Below are positions 10,620 through 33,978 of a stretch of DNA of 49,305 bases, one piece after another; positions within the stretch are counted from its first letter, which is position 1; each line of letters begins with the position of its first letter. This stretch comes from a virus: IMG/VR virus record IMGVR_UViG_3300025128_000068, positions 1 to 49,305 of that record, one strand, 5' to 3'. The position numbers and the translations under genes were made by a program. The notes under the pieces are model-generated. The model did not search any database. It saw only the letters and a program-made list of their open reading frames with translations, and had not been told where the DNA came from.

Positions 10620-12529
10620 TTACACTATTATTTTTAACGACATCTGCTTGGGCGACAGACCCTGTATTCACAATTGGTTCTGATCCTGTTATTGATATAA
10701 CTGGAACTGGCCAAGGATTAAGCCTCGGCGACGATTCGATGTCTGGGATGAAAAATATCGGTTTCGATTTTACCTTTTATGATCAGACCTTCTCTCAAGT
10801 AAATATATCTATGAACGGATTCTTTACCTTTCAGTCAAATTTTTCTGTGCCTAGAGTAAGAAATTACAGATCGGAAACGCTCCCAGCTACTTCATTTAAT
10901 TATTCTGTATTTCCTGCTTGGTCAGATTATATTAGAAGGTCTAGTGGTAATCAATCTCCCTACATACAGACCTTTGGACAAACAGCAGATACAGATCAAT
11001 ATTTTGTCATCATGTGGGACAATGTTTCTGAATATAGTAACGGATTAAAAAGCACTTTCCAGGCTATATTATATGAAACGACTAATGAAATTGCTTTCCG
11101 CTACGATGAACTTCGTATCCAGAATCACGATTTGACCATTGGAATCCAAGGCAACAATGAGGCTTTAACTTATATGCGGTATGAAGACACTAATAGTACA
11201 ACCTTTATTGAAACAGATGATTTTAGTGTAAGTACAGCTATTGATGAGTCTTTTAGCAACCTTTCTTCTGAATGTTTAATTGATTCTAGCTTTTCCGCAT
11301 TGTGTGATGTGTATGATTTAAGCAACAATTCTCAGGATGATGACTATCTTTATGGGATAAGTGAGGATATAATATATGGATATGATGAAGATACGACATT
11401 TTATGGATTTGATATGGACGAAGATGAACAACCTTTCGCCATTTCAGTTGTTTTTGCGGATGACGGTGATTGGAGTGATGATGGTAGTTATGATGATACT
11501 TTTCTTATCTTTAACGATATTGAACCTGGTCAAGAGTTTGAATTAGAAGATGATACATTATTTATACATCTTGATAGCGAGTATGATATTGAGTTCCTTG
11601 ATCCATTGCCTACTGTGGAAGAAGGATTTTTAGAAATAATCGAAATCGAAGAAGAAGAATTTATCCAACATTTTGAAGAAGTACAAGAAAGAATGGAAGA
11701 AGACTTTCTTGTGTTTATGGAAGAAGAGATATCTGAGGAAGAATTTGTTGAAATTGTAGAAGAATTTTTTGATGAAGAAGAAGCAATAGAGGAAGAGGAA
11801 GAGGCATTAGACGAAGCCATAGAAGAAATAACACCAGAGGAAATAGAGGAAGAGCGAGAAGAAAGAGGAGCTACGAGAAGAAATATAATAACTACACGAA
11901 ACCTTGTCTCTGACCTTGTTACAAGCGTTGTTAGAGGTAGTTACACATCGGCAAATAGCACAAGTAATGACAGTAATAACAGTGGTTCTGTAAGCGTTTC
12001 TGGTACGACAGTAGGGAATGTTAATTCACCTACCGTGTCGAACCAAGTCGCTGCTGATCAAGTGCAGACTAATACTGTATTGCAATCTATTACTGTAATG
12101 CCAATGCCTGGTGTTGATAATACACCATCTGTTGCTATGGCTGAGGTCCAAGTAACAACTATGGAAAACCAAATAGAGAGCGTTACATCTTCTGTTATGA
12201 CTGCATCGGAAGCAGACCAAGTAGCAGACCAAATTGTAGCTCAGAATATACAATCTCAACAGGAAGAAAACGAAAGAAGCCAGAACGAGTCTGGAGAATA
12301 CAGTACGCAAGGGCAAGCTAACTTATTGGCTTATATGGGTTATTCAGCTGGGTTCAATGCTTATCAAAATATGAACATACCAGATGGTTCAAATTGGTAT
12401 GAACCAAGAACTATATATGCAAATGTAATTTTAGATGATAATATAACCGGATATTATAGCTTGGTAGGAACTAACTTAGATCAACAAGCTAATTTGATGC
12501 AAACACAAAACATGGAGTTTTTTAGATAA
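10607..12529 (+). CDS. Exported adhesin-like protein with NIDO-like N-terminus and acidic segment
   Basis: A 640-residue protein. Residues 1-16 are a signal peptide (FRLITLLFLTTSAWA, cleavage after AWA). Residues about 17-200 resemble the beta-rich NIDO-like domain of surface proteins: GFDFTFYDQTFSQVNISMNG, then FPAWSDY, then FVIMWDNV, and a later IGIQGNNEA. A long acidic stretch (about 330-425) is dominated by Glu and Asp. A Ser/Asn/Val-rich beta region follows, then a Gln-rich helical region and a C-terminal part ending in MEFFR. Secreted products are unusual in a phage. It may be carried on the host surface or be an unusual receptor-binding part; neither is shown. It is coupled to the next small gene by TAATG. 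Confidence 0.6.
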   Translation: MFRLITLLFLTTSAWATDPVFTIGSDPVIDITGTGQGLSLGDDSMSGMKNIGFDFTFYDQTFSQVNISMNGFFTFQSNFSVPRVRNYRSETLPATSFNYSVFPAWSDYIRRSSGNQSPYIQTFGQTADTDQYFVIMWDNVSEYSNGLKSTFQAILYETTNEIAFRYDELRIQNHDLTIGIQGNNEALTYMRYEDTNSTTFIETDDFSVSTAIDESFSNLSSECLIDSSFSALCDVYDLSNNSQDDDYLYGISEDIIYGYDEDTTFYGFDMDEDEQPFAISVVFADDGDWSDDGSYDDTFLIFNDIEPGQEFELEDDTLFIHLDSEYDIEFLDPLPTVEEGFLEIIEIEEEEFIQHFEEVQERMEEDFLVFMEEEISEEEFVEIVEEFFDEEEAIEEEEEALDEAIEEITPEEIEEEREERGATRRNIITTRNLVSDLVTSVVRGSYTSANSTSNDSNNSGSVSVSGTTVGNVNSPTVSNQVAADQVQTNTVLQSITVMPMPGVDNTPSVAMAEVQVTTMENQIESVTSSVMTASEADQVADQIVAQNIQSQQEENERSQNESGEYSTQGQANLLAYMGYSAGFNAYQNMNIPDGSNWYEPRTIYANVILDDNITGYYSLVGTNLDQQANLMQTQNMEFFR

Positions 12530-12723
12530 TGGAAAGAATACATAAAACAAATTTAAAAACCTTTAAACATCCTCTGTTTCATAGAGAAAAAGGTCTTGAT
12601 AAAAAATATAGAGGTTTTGAATACCCTAAAATGACAACTACAGTAACAAGTTCTGAATTAGGTAGATATAGAGGTATAGAATATAAAGTAACCTTAAAGT
12701 CTGTTAAGGCTTCAATTGTCTGA
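12529..12723 (+). CDS. Small basic protein, unknown
   Basis: A 64-residue, Lys/Arg-rich protein whose ATG overlaps the preceding stop (TAATG). It contains two similar pieces, KKYRGFEYP and GRYRGIEYKV, suggesting an internal duplication of an [KG]xYRGxEY motif. No membrane segment. It sits between the exported proteins and the two small membrane proteins. Function unknown. Confidence 0.6.
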   Translation: MERIHKTNLKTFKHPLFHREKGLDKKYRGFEYPKMTTTVTSSELGRYRGIEYKVTLKSVKASIV

Positions 12724-12982: not shown

Positions 12983-13249
12983 ATGAAAAATATCTTGCCT
13001 AAATTACAACAGTACATCACGATAATAGGGGTGATCACCGCGATAGGCGGGGGTTTCTACACCTGGGGACAGTTTAATTTGCGTCTCGATAATATTGAGA
13101 AGAAGAAAATTAAAGCAGTTAATCTAACTCCGGTTAATACAAGTATTGCTGAACTATCGACAAAGGTCGACAACATAGAACAGAGATTAGATAGAACAGA
13201 AGACAGGATTGATAAGCTCGGCAATAATGATAACCCACTAGCTAGGTAA
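12983..13249 (+). CDS. Membrane-anchored coiled-coil protein (spanin-like or XhlA-like)
   Basis: An 88-residue protein with ATG at 12983 after a GGAGTAAAC site. One N-terminal membrane segment (YITIIGVITAIGGGFYTWG) is followed by a charged heptad-type coiled coil with repeated DNIEQRL/RTEDRID steps. This topology fits an inner-membrane spanin subunit or a small XhlA-type lysis accessory. It is the last plus-strand gene of the left block and ends 8 bases inside the convergent replication operon. Its DNA (GATCACCGCGATAGGCGGGG) is much more GC-rich than its neighbours, hinting at recent acquisition. Confidence 0.5.
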   Translation: MKNILPKLQQYITIIGVITAIGGGFYTWGQFNLRLDNIEKKKIKAVNLTPVNTSIAELSTKVDNIEQRLDRTEDRIDKLGNNDNPLAR

Positions 13250-16071: not shown

Positions 16072-16541
16072 GGTATATCGTCGTCAAAAGGCTCATGGTA
16101 TTTTTTATTTTTACCAGAACCTGTTACCTTGCCTCTTTCTGTTGGTATTTCTACGCCGTTAACATTAAGAAAATCTTCTACTTTATCCTCAACACCAATA
16201 TGTTCATGGAGGTGATCTCGATAAGAATTTAAAGATGTAATAATAATCTCTTGGATTTGTTCTTTAGTAATAGCAGATAGTGGAGTACTCCAACCTATCT
16301 CTTCTAGTACTACAGCTAAATCCTTTATAGTGTCATCAACTGCTTTTCTTTCTGGTACTAAATCTTGATATGACATTGTTCTTTTTTCCTTATTGTATTT
16401 AGACATTAGCTTCATTGCAGCATAACATCCATAAAAACCGACTACTTCGTCTTGCTTAAAATTAACATTATCAAATAAAATGTAAGGCACAACCCTACTA
16501 TATGAACATAACCCACAGACCCTTCTCCTTTTTAGATTCAT
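16065..16541 (-). CDS. Small helical protein with SSB-type acidic C-terminal tip (DDDIPW)
   Basis: A 158-residue frame from ATG 16541; a second start at 16376 with an AAGGA site would give a 103-residue protein (MSYQDLVPER...). Residues 1-50 contain CGLC and another Cys, possibly metal-binding. The core is helical. The end is EPFDDDIPW, nearly identical to the last residues of bacterial SSB (DDDIPF in E. coli), the peptide that recruits repair and replication proteins. It lies between the DUF669-like gene and the nuclease, whose start it overlaps. I do not recognise the family. A role as an SSB-tip-bearing adaptor or as a competitor for host SSB partners is inference. Confidence 0.6.
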   Translation of the reverse strand: MNLKRRRVCGLCSYSRVVPYILFDNVNFKQDEVVGFYGCYAAMKLMSKYNKEKRTMSYQDLVPERKAVDDTIKDLAVVLEEIGWSTPLSAITKEQIQEIIITSLNSYRDHLHEHIGVEDKVEDFLNVNGVEIPTERGKVTGSGKNKKYHEPFDDDIPW

Positions 16542-16557
16542 TATAAACTACCCTTGG

Positions 16558-16590
16558 TTGTGGAGTTTTTGACAGACAGGCACTCCACAA
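16558..16590 (-). other. 9-bp perfect hairpin inside the replication operon
   Basis: TTGTGGAGT (16558-16566) and ACTCCACAA (16582-16590) form a perfect 9-bp stem with a 15-base loop in the 86-base gap between the ssDNA-binding gene and the SSB-tip gene. There is no T-run beyond it on either strand, so it is not a classic terminator. It could be a processing, attenuation or protein-binding site. Confidence 0.45.
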
Positions 16591-16627
16591 GCCTGCAATA
16601 TAGGTCAATAAAGAAAAGACCTTCTGT

Positions 16628-18907: not shown

Positions 18908-18935
18908 GCTATATATTGTTCCGTTTGTGAAACAA
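18908..18935 (-). promoter_or_regulatory. Leftward promoter of the replication operon
   Basis: On the minus strand TTGTTT (18935-18930) and TATAGC (18913-18908) are spaced 16 bases. This lies about 55 bases upstream of the first replication gene. The -35 overlaps the -35 of the rightward XRE promoter, a layout expected of a genetic switch. Confidence 0.45.
18923..18933. promoter_or_regulatory. Candidate operator palindrome in the switch
   Basis: GTTTGTGAAAC is an 11-bp palindrome centred on one base. It sits exactly across the two overlapping -35 elements, where a bound XRE repressor would affect both promoters. No binding has been shown; the position is the main argument. Confidence 0.45.
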
Positions 18936-18952
18936 CTATGGGAGTTTATACT
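18925..18952 (+). promoter_or_regulatory. Rightward promoter of the XRE gene, leaderless
   Basis: TTGTGA (18925-18930) and TATACT (18947-18952) are spaced 16 bases. The ATG at 18957 begins four bases after the -10, so transcription would start at or within the first codon, as for lambda cI from PRM. The spacer contains an ATGGGA box (18938-18943) shared with other promoters in the window. Confidence 0.5.
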
Positions 18953-18956
18953 ACAC

Positions 18957-19253
18957 ATGATAACCGCAAGTCAACTAAAATTTTCACGAAATATTTTAAG
19001 GTTATCCACAAGAGAGTTATGTGCTCTTTCCGGAGTATCGCCTGCGACTATATCAAGGGCTGAGAATGGAGCCGATGTCAAGTATTCGACTATTAAAAAA
19101 CTTGCCAAAGTTTTCGAGAGTAAGGGGATAACTTACCCGACTAGTAAGTCCTTAAAACACCAAGGAGTGCTCGTTGACTTTGATGATTCTCACAATCAAT
19201 CATGCGAAACCAAAAATTACCTGAGCGAAGGCTCTTATTTGTCACGCTCTTAA
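18957..19253 (+). CDS. XRE-family helix-turn-helix regulator
   Basis: A 98-residue protein from ATG 18957. Residues about 5-60 form the helix-turn-helix (QLKFSRNILRLSTRELCALSG, turn, VSPATISRAENG), followed by STIKKLAKVFESKGITY, a usual XRE layout, and HQGVLVDFDD. A GTG at 18927 would add ten residues but overlaps the promoter and lacks a ribosome-binding site, so I prefer 18957. It faces the replication operon across a 100-base switch region and probably controls both promoters. The recognition helix is intact. No integrase is seen, so it may be a timing regulator rather than a lysogeny repressor. Confidence 0.8.
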   Translation: MITASQLKFSRNILRLSTRELCALSGVSPATISRAENGADVKYSTIKKLAKVFESKGITYPTSKSLKHQGVLVDFDDSHNQSCETKNYLSEGSYLSRS

Positions 19254-22282: not shown

Positions 22283-22669
22283 TTAATAATCTCCCCATAC
22301 TTTTGTTTTCGTTCCACCGTGATATTCAACAGCATGACCTTCTTTAATAAGAATTTGACAAATATCCTGGCCATCTTCTGTATATGGTATAGCCAATATT
22401 CTGCCGTATTTTCCTTTACCAAATGATTTAATCTTTAATTTTTGTCCGCACAACTCTTTTAATCGTACTGACGCTTTTTTGCCTAACGCTTTTTCAGCTA
22501 GGTCTCTAGTTCTTGATTCTGGTGTATCAATACCAGCTAAACGACATCTCTGTTTGTGCAGCTTAACATTAAAACCAAGATCAATAGTAATATCTATAGT
22601 ATCGCCATCGACTACTCTTTCTAATTCAGCATGATATACAAATGCTTCAACTTTTTGTTTTTTGCTCAT
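22283..22669 (-). CDS. SNase-family (thermonuclease-like) nuclease
   Basis: A 128-residue protein with the staphylococcal nuclease fold signature: RVVDGDTIDI (Asp21 and Asp23 in the calcium-binding loop), RLAGIDTPES with Arg43, Asp48 and Glu51 as expected catalytic or metal positions, KYGR with Arg90, and ICQILIKEGHAVEYHGG at the end. All key positions are present, so it should be active on DNA or RNA. There is no signal peptide, so it acts in the cytoplasm, perhaps in host-DNA degradation or nucleotide salvage. AAGGGAAG precedes ATG 22669. Confidence 0.85.
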   Translation of the reverse strand: MSKKQKVEAFVYHAELERVVDGDTIDITIDLGFNVKLHKQRCRLAGIDTPESRTRDLAEKALGKKASVRLKELCGQKLKIKSFGKGKYGRILAIPYTEDGQDICQILIKEGHAVEYHGGTKTKVWGDY

Positions 22670-23258: not shown

Positions 23259-23287
23259 CTTACAAACATTAACGCTAGGTGATCAAC

Positions 23288-23803
23288 ATGGAAGAAGAAA
23301 AGATAGAGATAACTGAGGTGGAAGAAGTAGAACAAAATCAACTCGGGCTGTCAGTTAATTTAACACAACAACAACAAAAATTTGTAGAGAATGTCGTTTA
23401 TCAAGATATGTCTCAAACTGAGGCTGCAAGAAAAGCAGGTTATAGTAACCCAGCAGTCCAGGCCCATAGAAACATGAAGTCAAAAAATATCATGATAGCT
23501 ATTGAAGAGTTAAGACATGAGGCTCAACACAGAAACAATGTCACATTAGATCGTTCACTTCGGGATTTAAAATCAATTCGGGATGCAGCTGTATTAGATG
23601 GAAGTTGGGGACCGGCAATTAAAGCCGAAGAATTAAGAATGAAAGCAGTCGGACTTCTTATTGAAAAGAAAGCTGTATTGCATGGTCGGGTTGACGCATT
23701 ATCAAAAGATGAAGTTTTAAAAGAACTTAAAAAGTTACAAGATAAAGCAAAACATCAATCGGGTATTGAAATAGATAAATCGGGTAAATTAATAACTAAT
23801 TAA
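23288..23803 (+). CDS. terS: Terminase small subunit
   Basis: A 171-residue protein from ATG 23288, chosen over GTG 23279 because AGGTGA lies five bases upstream of it. Residues about 25-75 form a helix-turn-helix (QQQKFVENVV, then SQTEAARKAGYS, then AHRNMKSK), the DNA-recognition head of Terminase_2-type small subunits. A helical oligomerisation part (RSLRDLKSIRDAAVLDGSWG, then AIKAEELRMKAVGLL) and a basic tail follow. It marks viral DNA and regulates the large subunit. It is isolated: the flanking genes are on the other strand and TerL lies about 8.7 kb away. Confidence 0.8.
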   Translation: MEEEKIEITEVEEVEQNQLGLSVNLTQQQQKFVENVVYQDMSQTEAARKAGYSNPAVQAHRNMKSKNIMIAIEELRHEAQHRNNVTLDRSLRDLKSIRDAAVLDGSWGPAIKAEELRMKAVGLLIEKKAVLHGRVDALSKDEVLKELKKLQDKAKHQSGIEIDKSGKLITN

Positions 23804-23972
23804 CCTGGCCGTCATGCTCTTCTAAAAATTGATAACATTCTTGTATTTTTTCATCAATTTCGTTTTTTTCCCTAACATTACCTATAATTATTAAAAAAGC
23901 GATAACGACTAAAGCAACAAAATACATCAATATTTTTTCATGCCATTTAAAAATCGGTTCTTTTTTAACCAT
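23796..23972 (-). CDS. 58-residue single-span membrane protein
   Basis: ATG 23972, with AAGGA nine bases upstream, opens a 58-codon frame that ends inside the convergent terS stop. A short basic start (VKKEPIFKWHEK) precedes one membrane helix (ILMYFVALVVIAFLIIIG) and a charged C-terminal tail. It is the last gene of the leftward tiny-gene cluster. It could be a small inhibitor or exclusion protein; the function is unknown. Confidence 0.6.
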   Translation of the reverse strand: MVKKEPIFKWHEKILMYFVALVVIAFLIIIGNVREKNEIDEKIQECYQFLEEHDGQVN

Positions 23973-24162
23973 GTTTGATTTTCCTTCTCTCTTTTTTTGC
24001 TTTCATATTTTCTTTTTTAATTAAAGCCCGAGCCTCAATATCAATTACATATTTTTCCCATTTCGTTCCTCTTAACTTTCCATAATCCATTTCAGGCCTC
24101 CTATGTGATTTAGTTTTACCTTTATCTTTAATTGTTTTACCTGGCAGTAATCTTTTACCCAT
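23965..24162 (-). CDS. 65-residue very basic protein
   Basis: The start at ATG 24162 is chosen because AAGGAG lies seven bases upstream; the frame extends further but without a site. The protein is Lys/Arg-rich throughout (GKRLLPGKTIKDKGKTKSHR) with a helical tail. It overlaps the membrane-protein gene by 8 bases. DNA or RNA binding is likely from charge alone. Confidence 0.55.
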   Translation of the reverse strand: MGKRLLPGKTIKDKGKTKSHRRPEMDYGKLRGTKWEKYVIDIEARALIKKENMKAKKERRKIKHG

Positions 24163-24172
24163 TGTTCTCTCC

Positions 24173-24352
24173 TTATATAAAATTTCTTGATTTATTCGGG
24201 TCTGTTGTTTCTTTTCTAAATTCAACATCTTTCTTTGCCTCTTCAAAGGCTAATTTTTCTTTATCTTCTGAATGAGAAAAATGTTCTAACCAAAATTGAT
24301 ATCTCTCCTGTAAGTAATTCATACTTATCGGGTAATAATTTTTAATTGTCAT
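24173..24352 (-). CDS. 59-residue helical protein
   Basis: ATG 24352 to TAA 24173. The protein begins MTIKNYYPISMNYLQERYQ, continues WLEHFSHSEDKEKLAFEEAK and is charged and helical. It overlaps the preceding gene in the cluster by 11 bases. Its CDS contains an internal AGGAGAG sequence that is probably not a start site. No family recognised. Confidence 0.5.
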   Translation of the reverse strand: MTIKNYYPISMNYLQERYQFWLEHFSHSEDKEKLAFEEAKKDVEFRKETTDPNKSRNFI

Positions 24353-24515
24353 TAGCCCTCTCTCTCGCAGCCATAATTTTATCTATATCATATTTTGAAC
24401 AATATCGGGCAACTTCTTGTTTATTTTTTATGTTTTTAAATCTCTTTAAATAATAATTATATAAAGCCATTCTAAGTTTTAGATCGGGATGCATATATTC
24501 TAAAAAATGTTTCAT
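24342..24515 (-). CDS. 57-residue basic helical protein
   Basis: ATG 24515, preceded by TAGGAGAG at ideal spacing, opens a 57-codon frame (KHFLEYMHPDLKLRMALYNY, then YCSKYDIDKIMAARERAN). The ATG shares bases with the stop of the upstream gene (ATGA). Aromatic and basic; no motif recognised. Confidence 0.55.
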   Translation of the reverse strand: MKHFLEYMHPDLKLRMALYNYYLKRFKNIKNKQEVARYCSKYDIDKIMAARERANDN

Positions 24516-24718
24516 TTTTTCTCTCCTAAATCAACTAATAATCTTTCTATTTCCTCTGATTCTCCACCATTCAAATGAACAGTTATTAATAACTTATTGT
24601 CGGTGTAGTCAGACCTCTCAACTCTAATAGCAATTTTACTATCATAATCAAACCACTTGACATCTTCTTCATCATACCAACCCATTTGATTTTTATGTTC
24701 ATCTATTTCATATCTCAT
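24512..24718 (-). CDS. 68-residue acidic protein, unknown
   Basis: A 68-residue acidic protein (MRYEIDEHKNQMGWYDEEDV) with a beta-rich centre (KIAIRVERSDYTDNKLLITV) and an acidic helix at the end. Coupled to both neighbours by 4-base overlaps. The size and charge resemble phage anti-defence or host-takeover proteins, but no family is recognised. Confidence 0.55.
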   Translation of the reverse strand: MRYEIDEHKNQMGWYDEEDVKWFDYDSKIAIRVERSDYTDNKLLITVHLNGGESEEIERLLVDLGEKK

Positions 24719-24870
24719 TTTTCTTCTCCCTCAACCTTAAACCAATAACAATAGACTAGTGTTTTAGTTCCATTATCTTCTTTTTCTACCCACTCTTCTG
24801 TGCAATCATATTCAAAAGCAGGACAATTAACTATCCAATCTTCAAACTTATCTTGTTTTTTCTCAGCCAT
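24715..24870 (-). CDS. 51-residue acidic protein, unknown
   Basis: ATG 24870 to TGA 24715 encodes MAEKKQDKFEDWIVNCPAFE with a further CTEEWVEKEDNG and TLVYCYWFKVEGEE. Three cysteines and four aromatic positions near the end suggest a small beta-hairpin fold. It overlaps neighbours by 4 and 8 bases. GGGAGAAGAA precedes the start. Confidence 0.5.
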   Translation of the reverse strand: MAEKKQDKFEDWIVNCPAFEYDCTEEWVEKEDNGTKTLVYCYWFKVEGEEK

Positions 24871-25033
24871 TTTCTTCTCCCGATGCTATAATGTCATATT
24901 CCCACCAACCATTAGATTGCTCTACTCCATGATAAAAGGCATCTGCCTCCGCAAAAGTATCAAATCTGTAGGTTTTAGTTTCTTCTCTCTCTGTTCCCCA
25001 AACGATAGTAATAAAATGTTTTTTCTCAGTCAT
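24863..25033 (-). CDS. 56-residue protein, unknown
   Basis: Start at ATG 25033, chosen for the strong GGAGGAAAA site just upstream. The product (MTEKKHFITIVWGTEREETK, then TFAEADAFYHGVEQSNGWWE) reads as beta-alpha-beta, like small ferredoxin-like or KOW-sized phage proteins. It starts eight bases after the methyltransferase-like gene. Confidence 0.55.
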   Translation of the reverse strand: MTEKKHFITIVWGTEREETKTYRFDTFAEADAFYHGVEQSNGWWEYDIIASGEENG

Positions 25034-25041
25034 TTTTCCTC

Positions 25042-25662
25042 CTAAGTCCATTGATCTGCCATAGCTTGAGCAATACTTGGAAAAAATTTACTCCTAAATT
25101 TCCATCTATCCTCACTTGGCGGTGCATTATGAACATCAGAACGAGCAGTAGAGCCGTCTAATGTTCCTGTTTTTTCAAGCAGTGGTAAATTTTTTAACCA
25201 CAAACAAATTCTTTTCTTCTGATTATCCCAAGAATTTTCATCATGGCCAAATTCATATGGCTGAAATGATTGTGCTTGTTTCTCAAAATTCTCAATTCTC
25301 TCTTTTGCATATTTATGCATAACAGGATTTTCAATACAAATTTTAGGAACATCTGCATTCCATAAATCAGAAAACAATTTTGCACCCTCATCTAACTCAG
25401 CCCAAATTTGTTCAAGTGTTTTGTTTGGTGGTGCTTTATGTAACCATCTAACACCTGAATTACATAATCTCGTGCATGGCGGGTGTGCCACCATTAACAT
25501 ATCCCATTCTTCCATAGCTAAAACATTACGAACATCATCCTGGATGTGTCTGTTAGTTTGATCATCTGATGGCAATACATCACATGACCAAGCATCATGA
25601 CCTTTATCTAAAAATGCGTTTCTAACTGTTCCGCTAGTTTCACATGCTACTAAAATCTTCAT
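25042..25662 (-). CDS. C5-cytosine-methyltransferase-like protein, short form
   Basis: A 206-residue protein starting at ATG 25662 (GGAGG eight bases upstream). It carries a Rossmann-type start (MKILVACETSGTVRNAF), a motif IV-like VAHPPCTRL with PPC at 61-63, and a motif VI-like CIENP with ENP at 111-113. These match the catalytic loop and supporting glutamate of cytosine-5 DNA methyltransferases. Length is far below the usual 300-400 residues and no target-recognition domain is seen between the motifs. Short PPC proteins of this kind are common in phages as putative methyltransferases; activity is unproven. It is the promoter-proximal gene of the leftward tiny-gene cluster. Confidence 0.65.
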   Translation of the reverse strand: MKILVACETSGTVRNAFLDKGHDAWSCDVLPSDDQTNRHIQDDVRNVLAMEEWDMLMVAHPPCTRLCNSGVRWLHKAPPNKTLEQIWAELDEGAKLFSDLWNADVPKICIENPVMHKYAKERIENFEKQAQSFQPYEFGHDENSWDNQKKRICLWLKNLPLLEKTGTLDGSTARSDVHNAPPSEDRWKFRSKFFPSIAQAMADQWT

Positions 25663-25728
25663 AATAAAAACCTCCATTAATTTATATTACCCATAACCTA
25701 GCATACATTCCCATAACAAGTCAACACT

Positions 25729-25808
25729 TATAATGAGATAATTTTAGATAATTTAATATGGGATATTTTAACAATAAACTTACCCCCTCAAAGAGAGGGG
25801 TTTTCTTA
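25729..25808 (+). ncRNA. Candidate small RNA unit between divergent operons
   Basis: A perfect -10 TATAAT (25729-25734) is followed within 75 bases by a canonical intrinsic terminator, with no open reading frame between. The only rightward gene further upstream is terS, 1.9 kb away. The likely transcript (about 25741 to 25806) would contain an ATGGGATATT sequence. The -35 is poor, so this is a tentative call. Confidence 0.3.
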
Positions 25809-25819
25809 TTTTTTTCTAT
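25784..25819 (+). terminator. Intrinsic terminator
   Basis: CCCCTC (25784-25789) and GAGGGG (25795-25800) pair around AAAGA, followed by TTTTCTTATTTTTTTC. It points rightward although no rightward gene lies directly upstream, so it either ends a small RNA or blocks transcription arriving from terS. Confidence 0.6.
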
Positions 25820-25850
25820 GAAACAAATTAAGCATAAATGAAACAGGGTT

Positions 25851-25865
25851 ACCTACTATATGTAG
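25851..25865. repeat. 15-base repeat, copy 1 (near-palindrome)
   Basis: ACCTACTATATGTAG is repeated exactly at 32007-32021 just before the HNH-TerL genes. The CTAC...GTAG arms make it an operator-like element. Here it lies between the terminator and the TCGGG repeat array. Confidence 0.45.
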
Positions 25866-25912
25866 TGGGTTTACATTAGTGGTAACATATGGTATAATCT
25901 AGAGGGGTATAG

Positions 25913-25990
25913 TAAGTCGGGACGCGTGTATAAGTCGGGACATGCGTTAAGTCGGGACACGCATTAAGTCGGGTCGCATGTAAAGGTCGG
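25913..25990. repeat. Array of ~17-bp TAAGTCGGG repeats (iteron-like)
   Basis: TAAGTCGGG(A/T)C starts at 25913, 25931, 25948 and 25965, with a weaker fifth copy (AAAGGTCGGG) near 25982. Period is 17-18 bases and the spacers are alternating purine/pyrimidine (CGCGTG, CATGCG, CACGCA, CGCATG). The array lies at the junction of divergent operons, the classic place for an origin or control region. It is not a CRISPR array: the units are too short and have no unique spacers. Confidence 0.6.
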
Positions 25991-26062
25991 GGATCGGGTT
26001 TAGGTTATGGAACTAGAACACTATATAGTATGTAGCATTATTATCACACTATATATAGGTGT

Positions 26063-26091
26063 TTGACAAGTATATTATCCCATGTTATAAC
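26063..26091 (+). promoter_or_regulatory. Strong rightward promoter with TCCCAT box
   Basis: TTGACA (26063-26068) and TATAAC (26086-26091) with a 17-base spacer. The spacer holds TTATCCCAT (26076-26083), the reverse of the ATGGGATAA box seen at other promoters. It drives the genes from 26121. Confidence 0.65.
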
Positions 26092-26120
26092 ATAACTAAT
26101 ATTAACTAATGGAGAAAATT

Positions 26121-26231
26121 GTGAAAAAACCAAATTTTAAAAACCCTAAGCTAATTAATAAAAAAGCTATTAATGATCTTAATAAAGAACAATTAAAACT
26201 TGTTTTAAAAATTTTAGGAAAGGTAAAATAA
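26121..26231 (+). CDS. 36-residue basic microprotein (GTG start)
   Basis: GTG 26121 with AATGGAGA upstream at the same spacing as in later genes of this operon; an ATG at 26109 overlaps that site and is less likely. The product (MKKPNFKNPKLINKKAINDL, then NKEQLKLVLKILGKVK) is basic and helical. The stop overlaps the next ATG (TAATG), so it may mainly serve translational coupling. Confidence 0.5.
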   Translation: MKKPNFKNPKLINKKAINDLNKEQLKLVLKILGKVK

Positions 26232-26944
26232 TGCCTGGTAAAATTATATATAATGGTAAGTCACTTCTTGACAATAAAACGCCAATTATTGCTGTAGCTG
26301 TAAATGGTAATAAGTCCGCACCTAACTCAAAAACCGGTGATATGCTACAGACTTATATCTTAACAAAAGATATTGACCCAAGACTAGCCAATAAGACGGG
26401 CCAAGACTTTGGAATTTGTGGAAATTGTCCGCACCGTGGAATACCATCCACCGATCCAAAAAGAGCGACGGCCGAAAAAAGAAAATGCTATGTTAAAATA
26501 TGGCAAGGCCCGTTAATCGTTTGGCGATCATTTAATAAAGGGCTTTATCCAATTGCGACGAATGAAGAGATTGTATCGATGGGTTCTAATAGGCCAGTAA
26601 GACTTGGCACATATGGCGATCCGGCAGCAGTGCCGCGGAATGTTTGGGACTTGTTAATTTCAGAAAGTACGGGACACACTGGTTACAGTCACCAAAGCAA
26701 AATTAAAGATAGTTATTCCGATATTTGCATGCATTCGGTTGAAGATAAAAAACAAGCAATAGCAGCCTGGAAGGATGGCAAGCGTACTTTTAGAATTATC
26801 CAAAGCGTGGACGAAATAATAAAAGGTAAAGAAGTTTTATGCCCAGCGTCAAAAGAGGCTGGTCGCAAGTCTGTATGCGAATTGTGCAAATTGTGCAGCG
26901 GTTCAGAAATTAAAAAGCGATCGGTCGCAATTGTGCAGCATTAA
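26231..26944 (+). CDS. Conserved Cys-rich phage protein (DUF7227-like), unknown function
   Basis: A 237-residue protein. CGNCPHRG and a further Cys (KRKCYVKIWQGPL) give one metal-type cluster, and a C-terminal CPASKEAGRK...CELCKLC gives a second. Between them a series of strand-like pieces (RLGTYGDPAAVP, TGYSHQ, DICMHSV, RTFRIIQS, EVLCPAS) is spaced by helices, as in a beta/alpha barrel. I recall this family from many phages as a domain of unknown function; the DUF7227 name is from memory. The cysteine clusters could hold zinc or Fe-S. The DNA is more GC-rich than its neighbours. Coupled to the microprotein upstream. Confidence 0.6.
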   Translation: MPGKIIYNGKSLLDNKTPIIAVAVNGNKSAPNSKTGDMLQTYILTKDIDPRLANKTGQDFGICGNCPHRGIPSTDPKRATAEKRKCYVKIWQGPLIVWRSFNKGLYPIATNEEIVSMGSNRPVRLGTYGDPAAVPRNVWDLLISESTGHTGYSHQSKIKDSYSDICMHSVEDKKQAIAAWKDGKRTFRIIQSVDEIIKGKEVLCPASKEAGRKSVCELCKLCSGSEIKKRSVAIVQH

Positions 26945-27015
26945 GTCGGGTTCGCGTATTAAGTCGGCCGTCGGGTCGGGTCGGCTTTATAATCGGGTCG
27001 GGGCCAGGGTAAATA
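26943..27015. repeat. TCGGG-repeat gap element
   Basis: TTAAGTCGGG begins inside the stop codon at 26941-26950, recurs near 26960, and is followed by TCGGGTCGGGTCGG and ATCGGGTCGGGG. It is the same family as the 25913 array. It is G-rich on one strand and could hinder transcription or replication. No reading frame is seen in the 262-base gap to 27207. Confidence 0.55.
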
Positions 27016-27070
27016 AAAAAATGGTGAAGGATAGGTAAACGAATAATTACAAATAAATTATATTTTCCCA

Positions 27071-27097
27071 TTGACTTATATAAGAATATGGGATAAT
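27071..27097 (+). promoter_or_regulatory. Rightward promoter with ATGGGATAAT box
   Basis: TTGACT (27071-27076) followed by an extended -10 TGGGATAAT (27089-27097); spacing of 15 bases is short but helped by the TG extension. TCCCAT also lies on the -35 (27066-27071), so the two boxes form a loose inverted pair around the promoter. Confidence 0.4.
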
Positions 27098-27206
27098 GTA
27101 TAAGAGATGGCTTACTAATGACAATGTATTGCTAAGGCGATATTAAAAATAAATAGCAAAATAAGGTAAGTCATCAAGTTTTTAATATTAACAATGGAGG
27201 AAAAAT

Positions 27207-27653
27207 ATGAAAAAACTAAATAAAACTGAGGCAGAATTATTTGCCGATAGAGTCTATGACAATCAACTTAAAGTAACTTTAGAACAAGCGGAAAATAAAC
27301 CTGAAATTAAAAAAGTAATTGCAGACGCTAATAAACTTCTTCGATTTTGGCAGAAGGCAGATGACAAAGCCAAGCAAGAAGAAAATAATTTTAAGAAATT
27401 TCTTAGCGATAATAAAATTTTAATAGAAGGGGATTTTGGCGATATTATGTTAAATTTCACTTCTGAATGGAATTACGAAATGCAGGAACATGTTCGTAAA
27501 GTTTTTGTGGATATTTCTCAGGGTGTTACAATAAGGCAAAAGTTGTTTAAGGAAATATTACTTGCCCAAATAGACAGTGAAAATCTTCAAGAGTTAGAAG
27601 TAAAAGTATTAGAAGGAATAAGAAAGGAAAACTATGAAAGACTTTTAACTTAA
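27207..27653 (+). CDS. Helical early-region protein, unknown
   Basis: A 148-residue protein with GGAGGAAAAAT directly before ATG 27207. It is helical and charged with a central KAKQEENNFKKFLSDNKI and a more hydrophobic pair of helices towards the end. No motif or membrane segment. It is alone between two gaps with repeats and structure. Confidence 0.6.
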   Translation: MKKLNKTEAELFADRVYDNQLKVTLEQAENKPEIKKVIADANKLLRFWQKADDKAKQEENNFKKFLSDNKILIEGDFGDIMLNFTSEWNYEMQEHVRKVFVDISQGVTIRQKLFKEILLAQIDSENLQELEVKVLEGIRKENYERLLT

Positions 27654-27913
27654 AGAATTATCCTAGCTAGGATACCTAGTAGTAAGGGCACGAAATTTGT
27701 TGGTAATGTGCTTAAAAAGATACTACATCAGCTCATAACTGATATGCAATTTACTTACTATCTAGGAGTTATACTAAACGAATAGGTTGTATCTACATAA
27801 TATATTGCAAACCCTATCGTTTATGTGAGAGAGAGAGTTGGCAGTGAAACCTAACTAATTATTAGGTGGACTAGGAAAGCCATTCAATTGTGTCCTAAAA
27901 AATAGCTTTCTCT
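27654..27913 (+). ncRNA. Structured gap, candidate RNA leader or small RNA
   Basis: No gene fits in this ~300-base gap. It contains a perfect 14-bp palindrome ATCCTAGCTAGGAT (27660-27673), a long imperfect inverted pair TAAACGAATAGGTTG (27775-27789) with CAAACCCTATCGTTTA (27808-27823), ACCTAA/TTAGGT arms (27849-27867) and GAAAGC/GCTTTC arms (27875-27910). The serial hairpins suggest a folded transcript upstream of the 27957 gene. Confidence 0.4.
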
Positions 27914-27953
27914 CGCTAGTTAAATCGGGAGAACGCTAGTTAAATCGGGAGAA
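27914..27953 (+). repeat. 20-bp perfect tandem repeat duplicating a ribosome-binding site
   Basis: Two exact 20-base copies (27914-27933 and 27934-27953), each ending in TTAAATCGGGAGAA. The second provides the GGGAGA site of the gene at 27957. The unit resembles the TTAAGTCGGGA repeats at 25.9 and 26.9 kb. Confidence 0.75.
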
Positions 27954-27956
27954 AAA

Positions 27957-28160
27957 ATGACTGAAGAAAAATTAAAATGGTGGCAAAAAGAATTTCCTAA
28001 CGATAGAGATTTACCTTTGCGAATGTTTGTTAATGGAGAATATCACGCAACCTTTGATAATATATCAACATTAAGTTTTATTGTGGATCAATTTAAAGGA
28101 GCAGGACATACAGTAGAATTAAAATACCCTGAAGGCGTAACAGATTGGAGGAAGGGTTGA
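27957..28160 (+). CDS. Small protein, unknown
   Basis: A 67-residue protein (MTEEKLKWWQKEFPNDRDLP, then MFVNGEYHATFDNISTLSFI, then AGHTVELKYPEGV). The beta-alpha-beta pattern fits a small DUF-type phage protein. The ribosome-binding site lies in the tandem repeat. Its stop overlaps the -35 of the next promoter. Confidence 0.6.
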   Translation: MTEEKLKWWQKEFPNDRDLPLRMFVNGEYHATFDNISTLSFIVDQFKGAGHTVELKYPEGVTDWRKG

Positions 28161-28185
28161 CACTAATAGAATAATATGGGATAGT
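28157..28185 (+). promoter_or_regulatory. Rightward promoter with ATGGGATAGT box
   Basis: TTGACA (28157-28162, using the stop codon of the preceding gene) and GATAGT (28180-28185) spaced 17 bases, preceded by ATGG to form ATGGGATAGT. It drives 28218 onward. Confidence 0.6.
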
Positions 28186-28217
28186 ATATCTTTAATATAA
28201 ATAAATGGAGAAATAAT

Positions 28218-28532
28218 ATGAAATTAATTACTAAAGAAGTTCAAAAGAAACTAGACGATAACATGAAGCTACCGGAGGAAGAAAGACAGCCGGTTGTCAA
28301 ATTCTTTGGCGGAGGTGGATGTAGTTGGTTTATCTCTGAAAGAGATGACAACATCCTCTACGGACTATGCGACCTTGGCGTTGGCTATAGAGAATTTGGA
28401 ACGGTTTATCTGAGCGAGTTGGAAGAGTTAAAATTTCCGCCTTTCGGACTAGGTGTTGAAAGGGACTTGCACTGGACTCCTCAAACTTTTGATGAGCTTC
28501 TAGAAGAACACAAACAAAATGGAGGTTGGTAG
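28218..28532 (+). CDS. DUF2958-family protein
   Basis: A 104-residue protein matching the DUF2958 pattern: KLITKEVQKKL at the start, VVKFFGGGGCSWFISERD in the middle, LYGLCDLGVGYREFGTVYLS and a closing GLGVERDLHWTP. Proteins of this family occur in plasmids, conjugative elements and phages and have no established role. GGAGAAATAAT precedes the start. It is followed by an overlapping gene. Confidence 0.7.
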   Translation: MKLITKEVQKKLDDNMKLPEEERQPVVKFFGGGGCSWFISERDDNILYGLCDLGVGYREFGTVYLSELEELKFPPFGLGVERDLHWTPQTFDELLEEHKQNGGW

Positions 28533-28533
28533 T

Positions 28534-29010
28534 ATGGGTGAATCAGAATTTAAAATTGAAAACATTCATGAGTACTTTGATGACTTTGCTCAAAGCGTTC
28601 CGAGAAAGTTACAGCGTCCGGAACATAAGATAACAATCATCTATTGTATGTTTGAGAATCATATAGATAGTGACGGACGATTCATACAAGCTCAGATTGT
28701 AAGAGATAGTAATCCGGAATATTGGGAAGGTAAAACTCGACTTGGTATCAGGCCTTTTGATAAAGGATACTTACCTCGCACCTTTGGTTCTGGTATTGAA
28801 AGAGCTCGCAAGACTATCCACGAATTAAATGCTGATCACGGTATAGCTAACCGTGACGAATTTCGAGGATGGGTCGGACTGCATATGAGTAATATTAATC
28901 TTCAGAACCTGGATGATATTGTTGACTTTAATTATCCATGTAATGAGGAAGGCCAGCGAATAGTAAAAACTACAAGAGCTAATGGAAAGTACTACGACTT
29001 CGTAGCTTAA
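28534..29010 (+). CDS. Accessory protein, unknown
   Basis: A 158-residue protein from ATG 28534, chosen because GGAGG lies eight bases upstream (the frame opens at 28519 inside that site). It has an alpha/beta look (HKITIIYCMFENHI, then RLGIRPFDKGYLP, then GSGIERARKTIHELN). No family recognised. The message starts overlapping the stop of the DUF2958 gene frame region by design of tight packing. Confidence 0.55.
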   Translation: MGESEFKIENIHEYFDDFAQSVPRKLQRPEHKITIIYCMFENHIDSDGRFIQAQIVRDSNPEYWEGKTRLGIRPFDKGYLPRTFGSGIERARKTIHELNADHGIANRDEFRGWVGLHMSNINLQNLDDIVDFNYPCNEEGQRIVKTTRANGKYYDFVA

Positions 29011-29018
29011 GATCACAT

Positions 29019-29090
29019 CGGGTCGGCTCGGCTGCGGTCGGGCCGAGTCGGGTTACATGTAAAAGAACACTCCTGGCGAGGAGAGGGTCG
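29019..29090. repeat. TCGGG-rich hairpin gap element
   Basis: Repeated TCGG(G/C) units with CTCGGC (29027-29032) facing GCCGAG (29042-29047), then a second hairpin CTCCT-GGCG-AGGAG near 29071-29084. No reading frame of note in the 158-base gap. Same repeat family as 25.9, 26.9 and 29.6 kb. Confidence 0.5.
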
Positions 29091-29134
29091 CAGTCTTTTC
29101 ACTCCATTGTTTGTGACGGCGGCCCATTAATATC

Positions 29135-29162
29135 TTGATTTATGGGATAATATGTTTATATT
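29135..29162 (+). promoter_or_regulatory. Rightward promoter with ATGGGATAAT box, leaderless
   Basis: TTGATT (29135-29140) and TATATT (29157-29162) with a 16-base spacer holding ATGGGATAAT. The ATG at 29169 begins seven bases after the -10, so transcription should start on it. There is no ribosome-binding site before it. Confidence 0.5.
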
Positions 29163-29168
29163 AGAAGC

Positions 29169-29555
29169 ATGGTTAATACATTAAATAAGAAAATAGAGGA
29201 CTTAACTAGCGATTGCGGTCGAGTCTCTAAGGTTAACGCTCAAACTTATAAAGAAGGCAGGGAGTTCATGGAATTTCAAAGCACCTCCAGGGCTATCGAT
29301 GTAGGTTTAGGTTGTTATGTTAATAACGAAGAAACTGTTGCTAGTGTTACAGACACACGGGTTAACGATCTTGCGGATGGCATCTTTAAATTATACATGG
29401 CCGTATGTAAGCTCGACACGCCATATCTTCTTTCCCTCGCCGAGGACGACAGATTTAGATGCATAATTCAGGCTGCGAATTTACTGCCTGAGTTAGAGCA
29501 ATCCATCAACAGTTACGGTAGTAGAGACTTAATCTACTCTGAAGACGACAAATAG
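29169..29555 (+). CDS. Accessory protein, probably leaderless, unknown
   Basis: A 128-residue alpha-helical protein (NTLNKKIEDLTSDCGRVSKV, later NDLADGIFKLYMAVCKLDTP). Four cysteines are scattered. No motif or membrane segment. It lacks a Shine-Dalgarno site, matching its leaderless promoter. It is followed by a strong hairpin. Confidence 0.6.
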   Translation: MVNTLNKKIEDLTSDCGRVSKVNAQTYKEGREFMEFQSTSRAIDVGLGCYVNNEETVASVTDTRVNDLADGIFKLYMAVCKLDTPYLLSLAEDDRFRCIIQAANLLPELEQSINSYGSRDLIYSEDDK

Positions 29556-29561
29556 GGAGAA

Positions 29562-29581
29562 TGGGGGCAGCAATGCCCCCA
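29562..29581. terminator. GC hairpin with GCAA tetraloop after the gene
   Basis: TGGGGGCA (29562-29569) and TGCCCCCA (29574-29581) close a GCAA loop, a GNRA-type tetraloop that is very stable in RNA. It lies six bases after the stop. There is no T-run, so it may be a 3'-end stabiliser or a Rho-independent-like pause rather than a standard terminator. Confidence 0.6.
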
Positions 29582-29595
29582 CTTAATCGGGTCGG

Positions 29596-29621
29596 GTCGG
29601 GTCATCACAAGATGGCCCGAC
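29596..29621. other. 11-bp hairpin made from TCGGG repeats
   Basis: GTCGGGTCATC (29596-29606) and GATGGCCCGAC (29611-29621) pair over 11 positions with one G-T pair and an ACAA loop. The left arm is part of a TCGGG triple repeat, which shows that the repeat family can form complete hairpins. Confidence 0.6.
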
Positions 29622-29672
29622 TTACCTACTAACTTAAGGGTATAGGTATATGCATGAACTAAATCACTCACC

Positions 29673-29701
29673 TTTACATATGGGATAACATGGGTTAAAT
29701 T
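29673..29701 (+). promoter_or_regulatory. Rightward promoter with double ATGGG box
   Basis: TTTACA (29673-29678) and TAAATT (29696-29701), spacer 17. The spacer holds ATGGGATAAC (29680-29689) and ATGGGT (29690-29695), a tandem double copy of the box. Confidence 0.45.
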
Positions 29702-29734
29702 ATATTCATGTTCACAAACACAAGGAGAGAAAAA

Positions 29735-30040
29735 ATGAACAACACTGAAACTAAAATAACTGACAAAGTAGAGATAGAAGATGGTTTAACATCTGAAACT
29801 CTTAGGAAAGTTACTAAGAATAGAGTATGTAACATTGTCTATATGAACTCAAAAGGTTTAGGTCGTTACTCTGTAAGAGTATCAGCTGACGAACATCAAG
29901 TTGAACGAAAAGGTTTTAACCCTGATGAACATATCAGCTTTAGACCAGCATTCACAAAAGAGTTTAGGACTTTCAGAATTGATAAGATATATAGCATTAG
30001 CCAAAAGGGTGAGTTGCTATATGGTTATTTAGAATTTTAA
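29735..30040 (+). CDS. Small beta-rich protein, unknown
   Basis: A 101-residue protein from ATG 29735, chosen for the AAGGAGAG site (the frame also opens at 29708). Strand-rich middle (NRVCNIVYMNSKGLGRYSVR) and an aromatic end (YSISQKGELLYGYLEF). The pattern suggests an SH3-like or WYL-like small beta barrel, which is a guess. Followed by a strong hairpin. Confidence 0.55.
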   Translation: MNNTETKITDKVEIEDGLTSETLRKVTKNRVCNIVYMNSKGLGRYSVRVSADEHQVERKGFNPDEHISFRPAFTKEFRTFRIDKIYSISQKGELLYGYLEF

Positions 30041-30046
30041 AGGGAG

Positions 30047-30068
30047 GGCGGGGCATTACTGCCCCGCC
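30047..30068. terminator. 9-bp GC hairpin after the gene
   Basis: GGCGGGGCA (30047-30055) and TGCCCCGCC (30060-30068) with a TTAC loop, seven bases after the stop at 30040. No T-run follows. It is similar in design to the hairpins at 23236 and 29562. Confidence 0.6.
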
Positions 30069-30077
30069 ATTAACATT

Positions 30078-30194
30078 ATGGAAGATTTATTACTTTTAAT
30101 TGCTTTTATTTCAATAGTAATTTTTGCAGTCGGTTGCTTGTTATTATTAATTCAATTATTTCATTATACTTTTACTGGTCGCTGGATACCATAA
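30078..30194 (+). CDS. 38-residue membrane microprotein
   Basis: ATG 30078 to TAA 30194. Nearly the whole protein is one membrane helix (LLLLIAFISIVIFAVGCLLL) with a short Tyr/Arg/Trp tail. It lies between two hairpins, and the hairpin stem may contain part of its leader. A small toxin-like or holin-like role is possible. Confidence 0.45.
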   Translation: MEDLLLLIAFISIVIFAVGCLLLLIQLFHYTFTGRWIP

Positions 30195-30204
30195 GAAAGC
30201 AGGT

Positions 30205-30241
30205 TCCCTGAGCTTCTAAATTGCTCAGGGAGCTTATTTTT
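30205..30241 (+). terminator. Intrinsic terminator
   Basis: TCCCTGAGC (30205-30213) and GCTCAGGGA (30223-30231) form a perfect 9-bp stem with a 9-base loop, followed by GCTTATTTTTA. It closes the accessory operon. Confidence 0.75.
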
Positions 30242-32027: not shown

Positions 32028-32516
32028 ATGGAGAGCTCACGCAAGTGCAATACATGCGAAGTGACGAAACCCATTACAGCATTTGAAAAAATGTTTTCAA
32101 GGAATGGGTCTCCTTGCTACCGACGGCGTTGTCGCAAATGCAATATAAAATTTCGCAATGATAAAACTAATAAAGACCCAATAAAATTTTTAAGAAGAAA
32201 CTTTACACAGTTACGATCTGCTCGAAAAAGAAAAGGAGAAAAAACTTGGGACTTGTCTTGGAAACATATTTTAGATATATGGTTAGAGTGTAAAGGTAAT
32301 TGTCAAGTCAGTGGCATTAAAATGACACACAAAAGAGATGGCACCGGAAAAAAATTATATACAAATATTTCAATAGATAGAATAGATAATGATATAGGTT
32401 ACAAAAAAGAAAATATTCGTTTAGTATGTTGGGCAGTAAATATTATGAAACATAATATGTCAGACACAGAATTAATGTTATGGGTATCGAGAATACATGA
32501 CGCAAGCAGAAGTTGA
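32028..32516 (+). CDS. HNH endonuclease with zinc finger
   Basis: A 162-residue protein. CNTCEVTKPITAFEK and CRKC form a zinc-finger pair. The C-terminal half has HNH-type features: CQVSG, NISIDRIDND as the central strand and GYKKENIRLVCWAVNIMKH with His as the final motif. HNH proteins next to large terminases assist cos cleavage and packaging in other phages, and free-standing HNH homing nucleases are also common; position immediately upstream of TerL favours the packaging role. It overlaps terL by 20 bases. Confidence 0.75.
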   Translation: MESSRKCNTCEVTKPITAFEKMFSRNGSPCYRRRCRKCNIKFRNDKTNKDPIKFLRRNFTQLRSARKRKGEKTWDLSWKHILDIWLECKGNCQVSGIKMTHKRDGTGKKLYTNISIDRIDNDIGYKKENIRLVCWAVNIMKHNMSDTELMLWVSRIHDASRS

Positions 32517-33978
32517 TTATAGTAGTTTAGACGAAGAACAAATTCGTTACGCTCTTCAATTAGAAGAGAGATTAAATTTTTTACAAGAAAAAGATGCAGC
32601 AAAAAATGACTTTCTAACTTATGTAAGAAAAATGTGGCCTGATTTTATTGAAAGTAGTCATCACAAAATTTATGCAAAAAAATTACAAGACATAGCTACA
32701 GGAAAATTAAAAAGATTAATTATTAATATGCCGCCTCGACACACGAAGTCTGAGTTTGCGTCAATCTATTTTCCATCCTATATGTTAGGACTTAATCCTA
32801 AATTAAAAATTATTCAAGCAACACACACAACCGAACTTGCTACAGGTTTCGGTCGTAAGTGCAAAATGCTTGTTGATACTCCAGATTACAAAACCGTATT
32901 TCCAGAAACAAAAGTTTCCCCTGAGTCTAAAGCTGCTGGGCGTTGGGCAACTACACAGGGCGGTGAGTATTTTGCGGCGGGGGTTGGTGCAGCGATTACA
33001 GGTCGTGGTGCTGACCTCCTTATTATTGACGATCCTCATTCTGAGCAAGATGCGTTATCACCATCGGCTATGGAAAATTGTTACGAGTGGTATACATCTG
33101 GTCCAAGACAAAGATTACAGCCAGGTGGGTCTATTGTTGTTGTTATGACGCGTTGGTCTACAAAAGATTTGACGGCAGAGGTGTTAAAGAAACAAGGACA
33201 AGAAAATGCAGATCATTGGGAGGTTGTAGAGTTCCCTGCTATTTTTGATGACGGCAATGTTTTATGGCCCAACTTCTGGTCTGAAGAAGAATTATTAAAA
33301 GTTAAAACTTCCCTACCAATTTCTAAATGGAATGCTCAGTGGTTACAACAACCGACAATGGAAGAAGGTGCCATTATTAAAAGAGAGTGGTGGCAAATGT
33401 GGGAAGATGAAGAACCACCAGAATGTGAATATGTATTACAATCATATGATACTGCATTTTTAAAATCTGAAACTGCTGACTACAGTGCAATAAGTACTTG
33501 GGGTGTATTTTATCCTAATGATGATGATGGTCCTCGTATTATATTATTAGATTGTTGTAAAGGACGATGGGAATTTCCTGAGTTAAAAAAGATAGCCATG
33601 GAATCGTATTCTGATCATAAACCTGATATAGTTTTAATAGAGGCTAAGGCTTCTGGACTTCCTTTAACTCAGGAGTTGAGAAATATGGGGATTCCTGTTA
33701 TAAATTTTACACCAGGTGGACGACGCTCTGGACAAGATAAAGTTTCAAGAGTCCATGCCTGTGCCCCGATGTTTGAATCTGGTCTTGTATGGCGACCTGA
33801 TTTTCAATGGGCGGATGAGATGGCAGAAGAATGTGCCTCTTTTCCATTTGGAGACAATGATGACTTGGTAGATTCGATGTCTCAGGCTATACTACGGTTT
33901 CGTGAAGGTGGATTTGTTAGACACCCGAGCGACGAATTATGGGACGAAGATCGTCCTCGTCAAAAGGAGTATTATTGA
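32497..33978 (+). CDS. terL: Terminase large subunit
   Basis: A 493-residue protein. Walker A MPPRHTKS at about 78-85, Walker B LLIIDDP at about 174-180, and an RNase H-type nuclease with SYDTAF (Asp318), IEAKASG (Glu382) and DDLVDSMSQA (Asp456/Asp459). It powers DNA translocation into the procapsid and cuts the concatemer. All motifs are intact. It begins inside the HNH gene and is followed by a TGATG overlap, so HNH, TerL and the next gene are translationally linked. The length is typical. Confidence 0.9.
   Translation: MTQAEVDYSSLDEEQIRYALQLEERLNFLQEKDAAKNDFLTYVRKMWPDFIESSHHKIYAKKLQDIATGKLKRLIINMPPRHTKSEFASIYFPSYMLGLNPKLKIIQATHTTELATGFGRKCKMLVDTPDYKTVFPETKVSPESKAAGRWATTQGGEYFAAGVGAAITGRGADLLIIDDPHSEQDALSPSAMENCYEWYTSGPRQRLQPGGSIVVVMTRWSTKDLTAEVLKKQGQENADHWEVVEFPAIFDDGNVLWPNFWSEEELLKVKTSLPISKWNAQWLQQPTMEEGAIIKREWWQMWEDEEPPECEYVLQSYDTAFLKSETADYSAISTWGVFYPNDDDGPRIILLDCCKGRWEFPELKKIAMESYSDHKPDIVLIEAKASGLPLTQELRNMGIPVINFTPGGRRSGQDKVSRVHACAPMFESGLVWRPDFQWADEMAEECASFPFGDNDDLVDSMSQAILRFREGGFVRHPSDELWDEDRPRQKEYY

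Follow-up and report, generated by a model that had tools for sequence, protein, structure and literature searches.

What is the function of the TCGGG repeats that fill gaps between small accessory genes ahead of the large terminase gene of an uncultured phage? The window, that is the whole 49,305-nt stretch of viral DNA analysed here, is a record without known ends, and its gene calls are mechanical. It groups with the HTVC023P/HTVC027P-type pelagiphages and their kin, with a TerL at most 63% identical to those of cultured members, and has the gene order of this group in common: terS, gap-rich small genes, terL. The large terminase gene terL (32497..33978, +; phrog_38, E = 9.5e-105; PF17289) is coded on the same strand as the repeats. 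When the repeat region was used as query, no cultured phage matched at the DNA level. An initial annotation of the letters had described the repeats as filling gaps of the accessory region, and had offered a mobile repeat, a recombination hotspot or binding sites as explanations.

TCGGG clusters in the gaps of the accessory region

All five gaps named in the initial annotation were found to contain TCGGG units, read on the + strand. Cluster 1 (25913..25998) holds six TCGGG in TAAGTCGGG units at 17-18 nt spacing, with alternating purine-pyrimidine spacers, and is located just downstream of a sigma-70-like promoter, TTTACA-17-TATAAT (25870..25898, +; 11/12 matches). Its position is unchanged in relatives and the number of units differs. 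Cluster 2 (26942..27002, five TCGGG) overlaps the stop codon of the preceding accessory gene (26231..26944, +; phrog_2554, unknown function), the TAA of which is provided by TTAAGTCGGG; the overlap with stop codons, already reported from the letters, recurs with TTAAGTCGGG in relatives L007-L014, L042, L043, L045 and L046. Cluster 3 (27914..27953) consists of two exact copies of the 20-nt unit CGCTAGTTAAATCGGGAGAA, and the following ORF has its ribosome-binding site within it. Cluster 4 (29018..29052) has three TCGGG with a hairpin, and cluster 5 (29587-29620) has three TCGGG and one in reverse; a G-rich hairpin comes first, and then the cluster and its complementary arm (29561..29620). The two-unit pattern was also matched in L044, L051 and L052; these are outside the clade, the L044 match being an 18-nt tandem repeat, and were rejected.

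In total, 40 TCGGG were counted on both strands of the window, compared with a mean of 23 and a maximum of 34 in 100 dinucleotide shuffles. Within 25.7-29.8 kb, gaps of at least 30 nt contained 20 TCGGG in 1,363 nt, whereas such gaps elsewhere (2,175 nt) had none, so the claimed absence from other gaps holds. The gap 28161-28217, inside the region, also had no TCGGG.

RNA folding agreed with the initial count of two strong hairpins, which were obtained at 29008-29066 (z -4.1) and 29556-29626 (z -6.1), and at these two clusters only. A weak RNA hairpin was detected at 27908-27958 (z -2.2), and 25908-26005 and 26938-27012 folded no better than shuffles. The search for intrinsic terminators (hairpin and T-run) at the clusters gave one weak + strand match at 26970-26985 and none at the two strong hairpins.

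Gene exchange between the gaps

The accessory ORFs at 27207..27653 (no family match), 27957..28160, 28218..28532 (DUF2958) and 29169..29555, all on the + strand, had been taken for exchangeable cassettes, and the comparison with relatives supports this. L078 replaces the ORF at 29169-29555 from start to stop codon, L055 inserts an additional ORF just before 29587, and in L007 nothing is alignable between 27771 and 28157. Of the alignment breaks against relatives, 65% were located in gaps versus 32% after rotation (p = 0.02), and 13% were no more than 40 nt away from a TCGGG cluster, with 14% expected. Breaks in gene content thus coincide with gene and gap borders in general, with the TCGGG clusters not singled out. 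These figures lend no support to a recombination hotspot at the repeats; nor is a mobile repeat supported, copies persisting at corresponding gaps in relatives.

The exchange of genes recalls the PeSL elements of T4-type phages, reportedly described by Arbiol et al. 2010, which are likewise repeats that reside in gaps close to promoters, where genes are swapped. By analogy, each gap would combine a TCGGG stem-loop or terminator with a promoter, and the shared gap sequence would permit small genes to be swapped by homologous recombination. Promoter-like sequences do follow several clusters, two window clusters, L012 and L059 have hairpins, that of L012 with a T-run, and relatives have swapped ORFs between gaps, where breaks are enriched. 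Stem-loops are not general, however: three of the five clusters are without a strong hairpin, so that a promoter and stem-loop in every gap is not the pattern found. With no concentration of breaks at the clusters, with copies within terS and opposite minus-strand genes left unexplained, and with an orientation in relatives that is independent of the direction of transcription, we regard PeSL-like cassettes as unlikely. Arbiol et al. 2010 is cited for PeSL elements in PMC4177764.

TCGGG in terS and opposite minus-strand genes

The description as a gap-filling family was correct for the gaps and incomplete for the full pattern, in that copies in terS and at 24.2-24.5 kb had been missed. TCGGG copies run from 23343, inside terS, to 29601. 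On the + strand, 23279-30211 contained 29 TCGGG versus 0.8 expected from the remaining genome, a clustering that far outweighs the overall excess over shuffles; these 29 lie inside the interval from terS through the accessory region, with 2 + strand copies outside it. Within the interval, 29 copies have one orientation relative to terL and 3 have the other.

The small terminase gene terS (23288..23803, +; PF03592, E = 9.6e-9), homologous to the annotated TerS of HTVC027P and DSL-LC04, carries six TCGGG on the + strand, at 23343, 23560, 23578, 23686, 23759 and 23780. The expected number was 0.10, and 0 of 20,000 synonymous back-translations (same protein, phage codon usage) reached six. This was the most extreme 5-mer excess among 43 genes tested (log10 p -7.5; next -4.1), and TCGGG was the top word in pooled relatives (63 versus 1.35); the p-values of the scan are uncorrected for all words and windows, the main effects far exceed any such correction, and relatedness among the sequences inflates the counts.

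Across 23 distinct terS sequences TCGGG sites were kept, with turnover at four positions. The sites are found in different reading frames (CGG-GAT, GGT-CGG-GTT, TCG-GGT), and at alignment columns 52/53 TCGGG was retained or re-created in a shifted frame. Some gains alter the protein, as from IAI to IGI at column 206 and from N to R at column 246. Wobble bases within shared sites were invariant in 6/8 cases versus 23/108 elsewhere, counts that are not independent since the sequences are related. A structure prediction for TerS was unusable (pLDDT 49).

Between terS and cluster 1, + strand TCGGG at 24196, 24328, 24405 and 24484 (24196..24488) face minus-strand genes (four versus 0.14 expected given the encoded proteins), and two of these copies are also present in L153, L011 and L140. 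When this stretch was summed over the relatives, 64 TCGGG were on the + strand versus 7, including copies opposite minus-strand genes. The 51.6-kb relative G001 has 32 of its 39 + strand TCGGG in the corresponding interval and 7 outside.

Since the copies keep to the + strand regardless of gene direction, and since those in terS are kept in several frames, TCGGG is a strand-oriented DNA signal extending from terS to 29.6 kb and goes beyond mere gap filler. Among the explanations first offered, that of putative binding sites is favoured, because a word that is conserved at codon level in terS and fixed in its orientation implies recognition of the sequence itself; in sum, binding sites are favoured, cassettes are supported, and hotspot and mobile repeat are not. 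The GC clusters of yeast mitochondrial DNA and the REP/BIME elements likewise place GC-rich repeats near stop codons in AT-rich genomes. TCGGG differs in its strict orientation and in being under selection within a gene.

An oriented element in uncultured kin

Many uncultured kin carry (AGAGAAGAGC)WTGTGGGCGGGNCCCACCC. A scan of a viral collection detected at least 244 copies of the TGTGGGCGGGNCCCACCC element in at least 80 contigs. Among the matches listed, 0/80 contigs had mixed orientation, 55 contigs having two or more copies, and the element was on the terL strand in 57/57 terL-bearing contigs, with 163/163 copies in these contigs upstream of terL. Also among the matches listed, terS was on the strand opposite the element in 35/35, and the last copy was positioned 154-189 bp before terL in 42/53 contigs (L178-L256). 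Gap contexts among the matches listed were co-directional (62+10), divergent (44) and convergent (17), counts that are rough because a simple ORF caller put at least 65 further copies inside ORFs of at least 70 aa. As the element is found in all three contexts, its orientation is independent of transcription.

An RNA-level signal in a rightward transcript, acting in antitermination or translational control, would suit cluster 1, which a strong promoter-like sequence precedes by about 15 nt, and one long transcript could include all + strand copies. We consider it improbable because the orientation of the kin elements is kept in convergent gaps, as it also is between minus-strand genes; an Rfam search gave no match.

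A replication origin or oriented replication signal in the terS-terL interval (iterons, primase or strand-switch sites) accords with direct repeats of fixed orientation and phage-specific sequence. The interval is located at a point of divergent transcription where the cumulative GC skew turns, and lambda, the ori of which lies inside gene O, offers a precedent for an origin within a gene. The copies are nevertheless spread over 6 kb with one group per gap, and the signal is tied to terS and terL and not to replication genes, a primase/helicase-like gene being at 13242. The distance of 154-189 bp between the last kin element and terL, in 42/53 contigs among the matches listed, is a further argument against it, and we judge a replication signal doubtful, somewhat more so than PeSL-like cassettes and less so than an RNA-level signal.

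Local words in related phages

In the genome of HTVC027P another word, GCTTG, was enriched in the terS-terL interval (n = 25, versus 6 elsewhere on that strand), and in 023Pt_psg01 it was GCTCG (14 inside, 3 outside). The gaps of DSL-LC04 were rich in GGCCG, and HTVC023P displayed no clear oriented word. The terS genes of HTVC027P, 023Pt_psg01 and DSL-LC04 were not enriched for their respective local word. GGTGG clusters in HTVC023P and 023Pt_psg01 were set aside, being in the structural-gene region. From place, orientation and confinement only, we infer that the different words of different lineages may do the same job.

The GTGGGCGGG element goes with TerS proteins that are up to 73% identical, and yet HTVC027P lacks it. 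The set of elements tracks TerS identity only loosely, and coevolution of TerS and word is not claimed.

The short, asymmetric, one-strand motif is also reminiscent of Chi sites, which would be read by a host recombination nuclease. TCGGG is limited to one interval and not genome-wide (29 in and 2 out on the + strand), and the word is not set by the host, as HTVC027P and HTVC023P infect the same host, HTCC1062, and differ in the word. This confinement and the difference in word despite a common host largely refute host Chi, which we reject as very improbable.

Two local arrays in these phages were observed separately. In HTVC027P (L158), 13 GCTTG, mostly at 7-nt spacing, run through the annotated minus-strand gene gp32 at 16506-16627. 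In HTVC023P (L160), terS is immediately followed at 12373-12566 by a direct repeat of about 34 nt in three copies, a possible counterpart of the TCGGG arrays.

A proposed distributed packaging signal

An orientation fixed relative to the genome, confinement between terS and terL, selection on terS codons and differing words within one host indicate a directional process on DNA, with a reader that the phage itself encodes. Our preferred reading, with a probability of roughly 0.45, is that the TCGGG copies make up a pac-like signal for packaging, distributed over the interval, with TerS as its possible reader. Many copies would be bound jointly by a protein of the phage, in the simplest case a ring of TerS, and the reader so bound would set the terminase to begin packaging towards terL. 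The hairpins at some gaps and the swapping of genes between gaps would be secondary. We infer TerS as the possible reader and packaging as the process that the repeats may serve.

The pac site of P1 is a cluster of hexamers. Initiation of packaging fits best because the 22-bp pac of P22 lies inside terS (PMC9611059) and because direct repeats in SPP1 span promoters and the start of the small terminase gene (PMC4737164). As in the pac sites of P22, SPP1 and P1, the repeats are in or next to the small terminase gene, with six conserved TCGGG in terS, and are direct repeats in a single orientation towards terL (29 versus 3 in the window). They differ in number and extent, with tens of copies in several gaps along about 6 kb, and in that the word varies by lineage. 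Known pac sites are far smaller than a putative signal of about 29 copies over more than 6 kb, and the spread from 23343 to 29601 does not agree with a single compact pac site that measures a few hundred bp at the most. Owing to the 6-kb spread, to terS genes without copies in other lineages and to a word that follows the TerS type only loosely, the signal is described as pac-like and not as a member of the pac family.

Genomes of the kin circularize via overlaps (PMC9599517); 023Pt_psg01 and DSL-LC04 were deposited as circular, and HTVC027P and HTVC023P as linear. A headful mode of packaging is at most suggested by the circular genomes.

The oriented, family-wide word pattern appears to be undescribed. 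More tentatively than for the window itself, an abundant marine phage family may mark its whole terS-terL interval with tens of lineage-specific, orientation-locked words, a distributed packaging address placed partly in terS codons and read by a phage protein. The recognition of viral DNA by TerS has been described as unclear and controversial, and TerS binding in vitro in other phages as mostly weak and sequence-independent (PMC9611059). A short, strongly conserved, multi-copy word that differs between related phages would allow a direct test of this recognition.

Other features of the region

Two genes outside the repeat interval were noted. A lone + strand gene of the Cro/C1 HTH type (PF01381), at 18927-19253 within a minus-strand block, is a candidate regulator, and a Staphylococcal-nuclease-like gene (PF00565) was found at 22283-22669.

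A second repeat, TATGGGATA, is present at 25757, 27087, 28175, 29141 and 29680 (+) and at 26073 (-), with five exact copies versus 0.05 expected. It lies after the TCGGG clusters in the downstream direction, within or next to the -10 regions of promoters. The similar sequence ATGGGATA was detected in gaps of HTVC023P and 023Pt_psg01, and TATGGGATA and ATGGGATA are possibly a shared operator.
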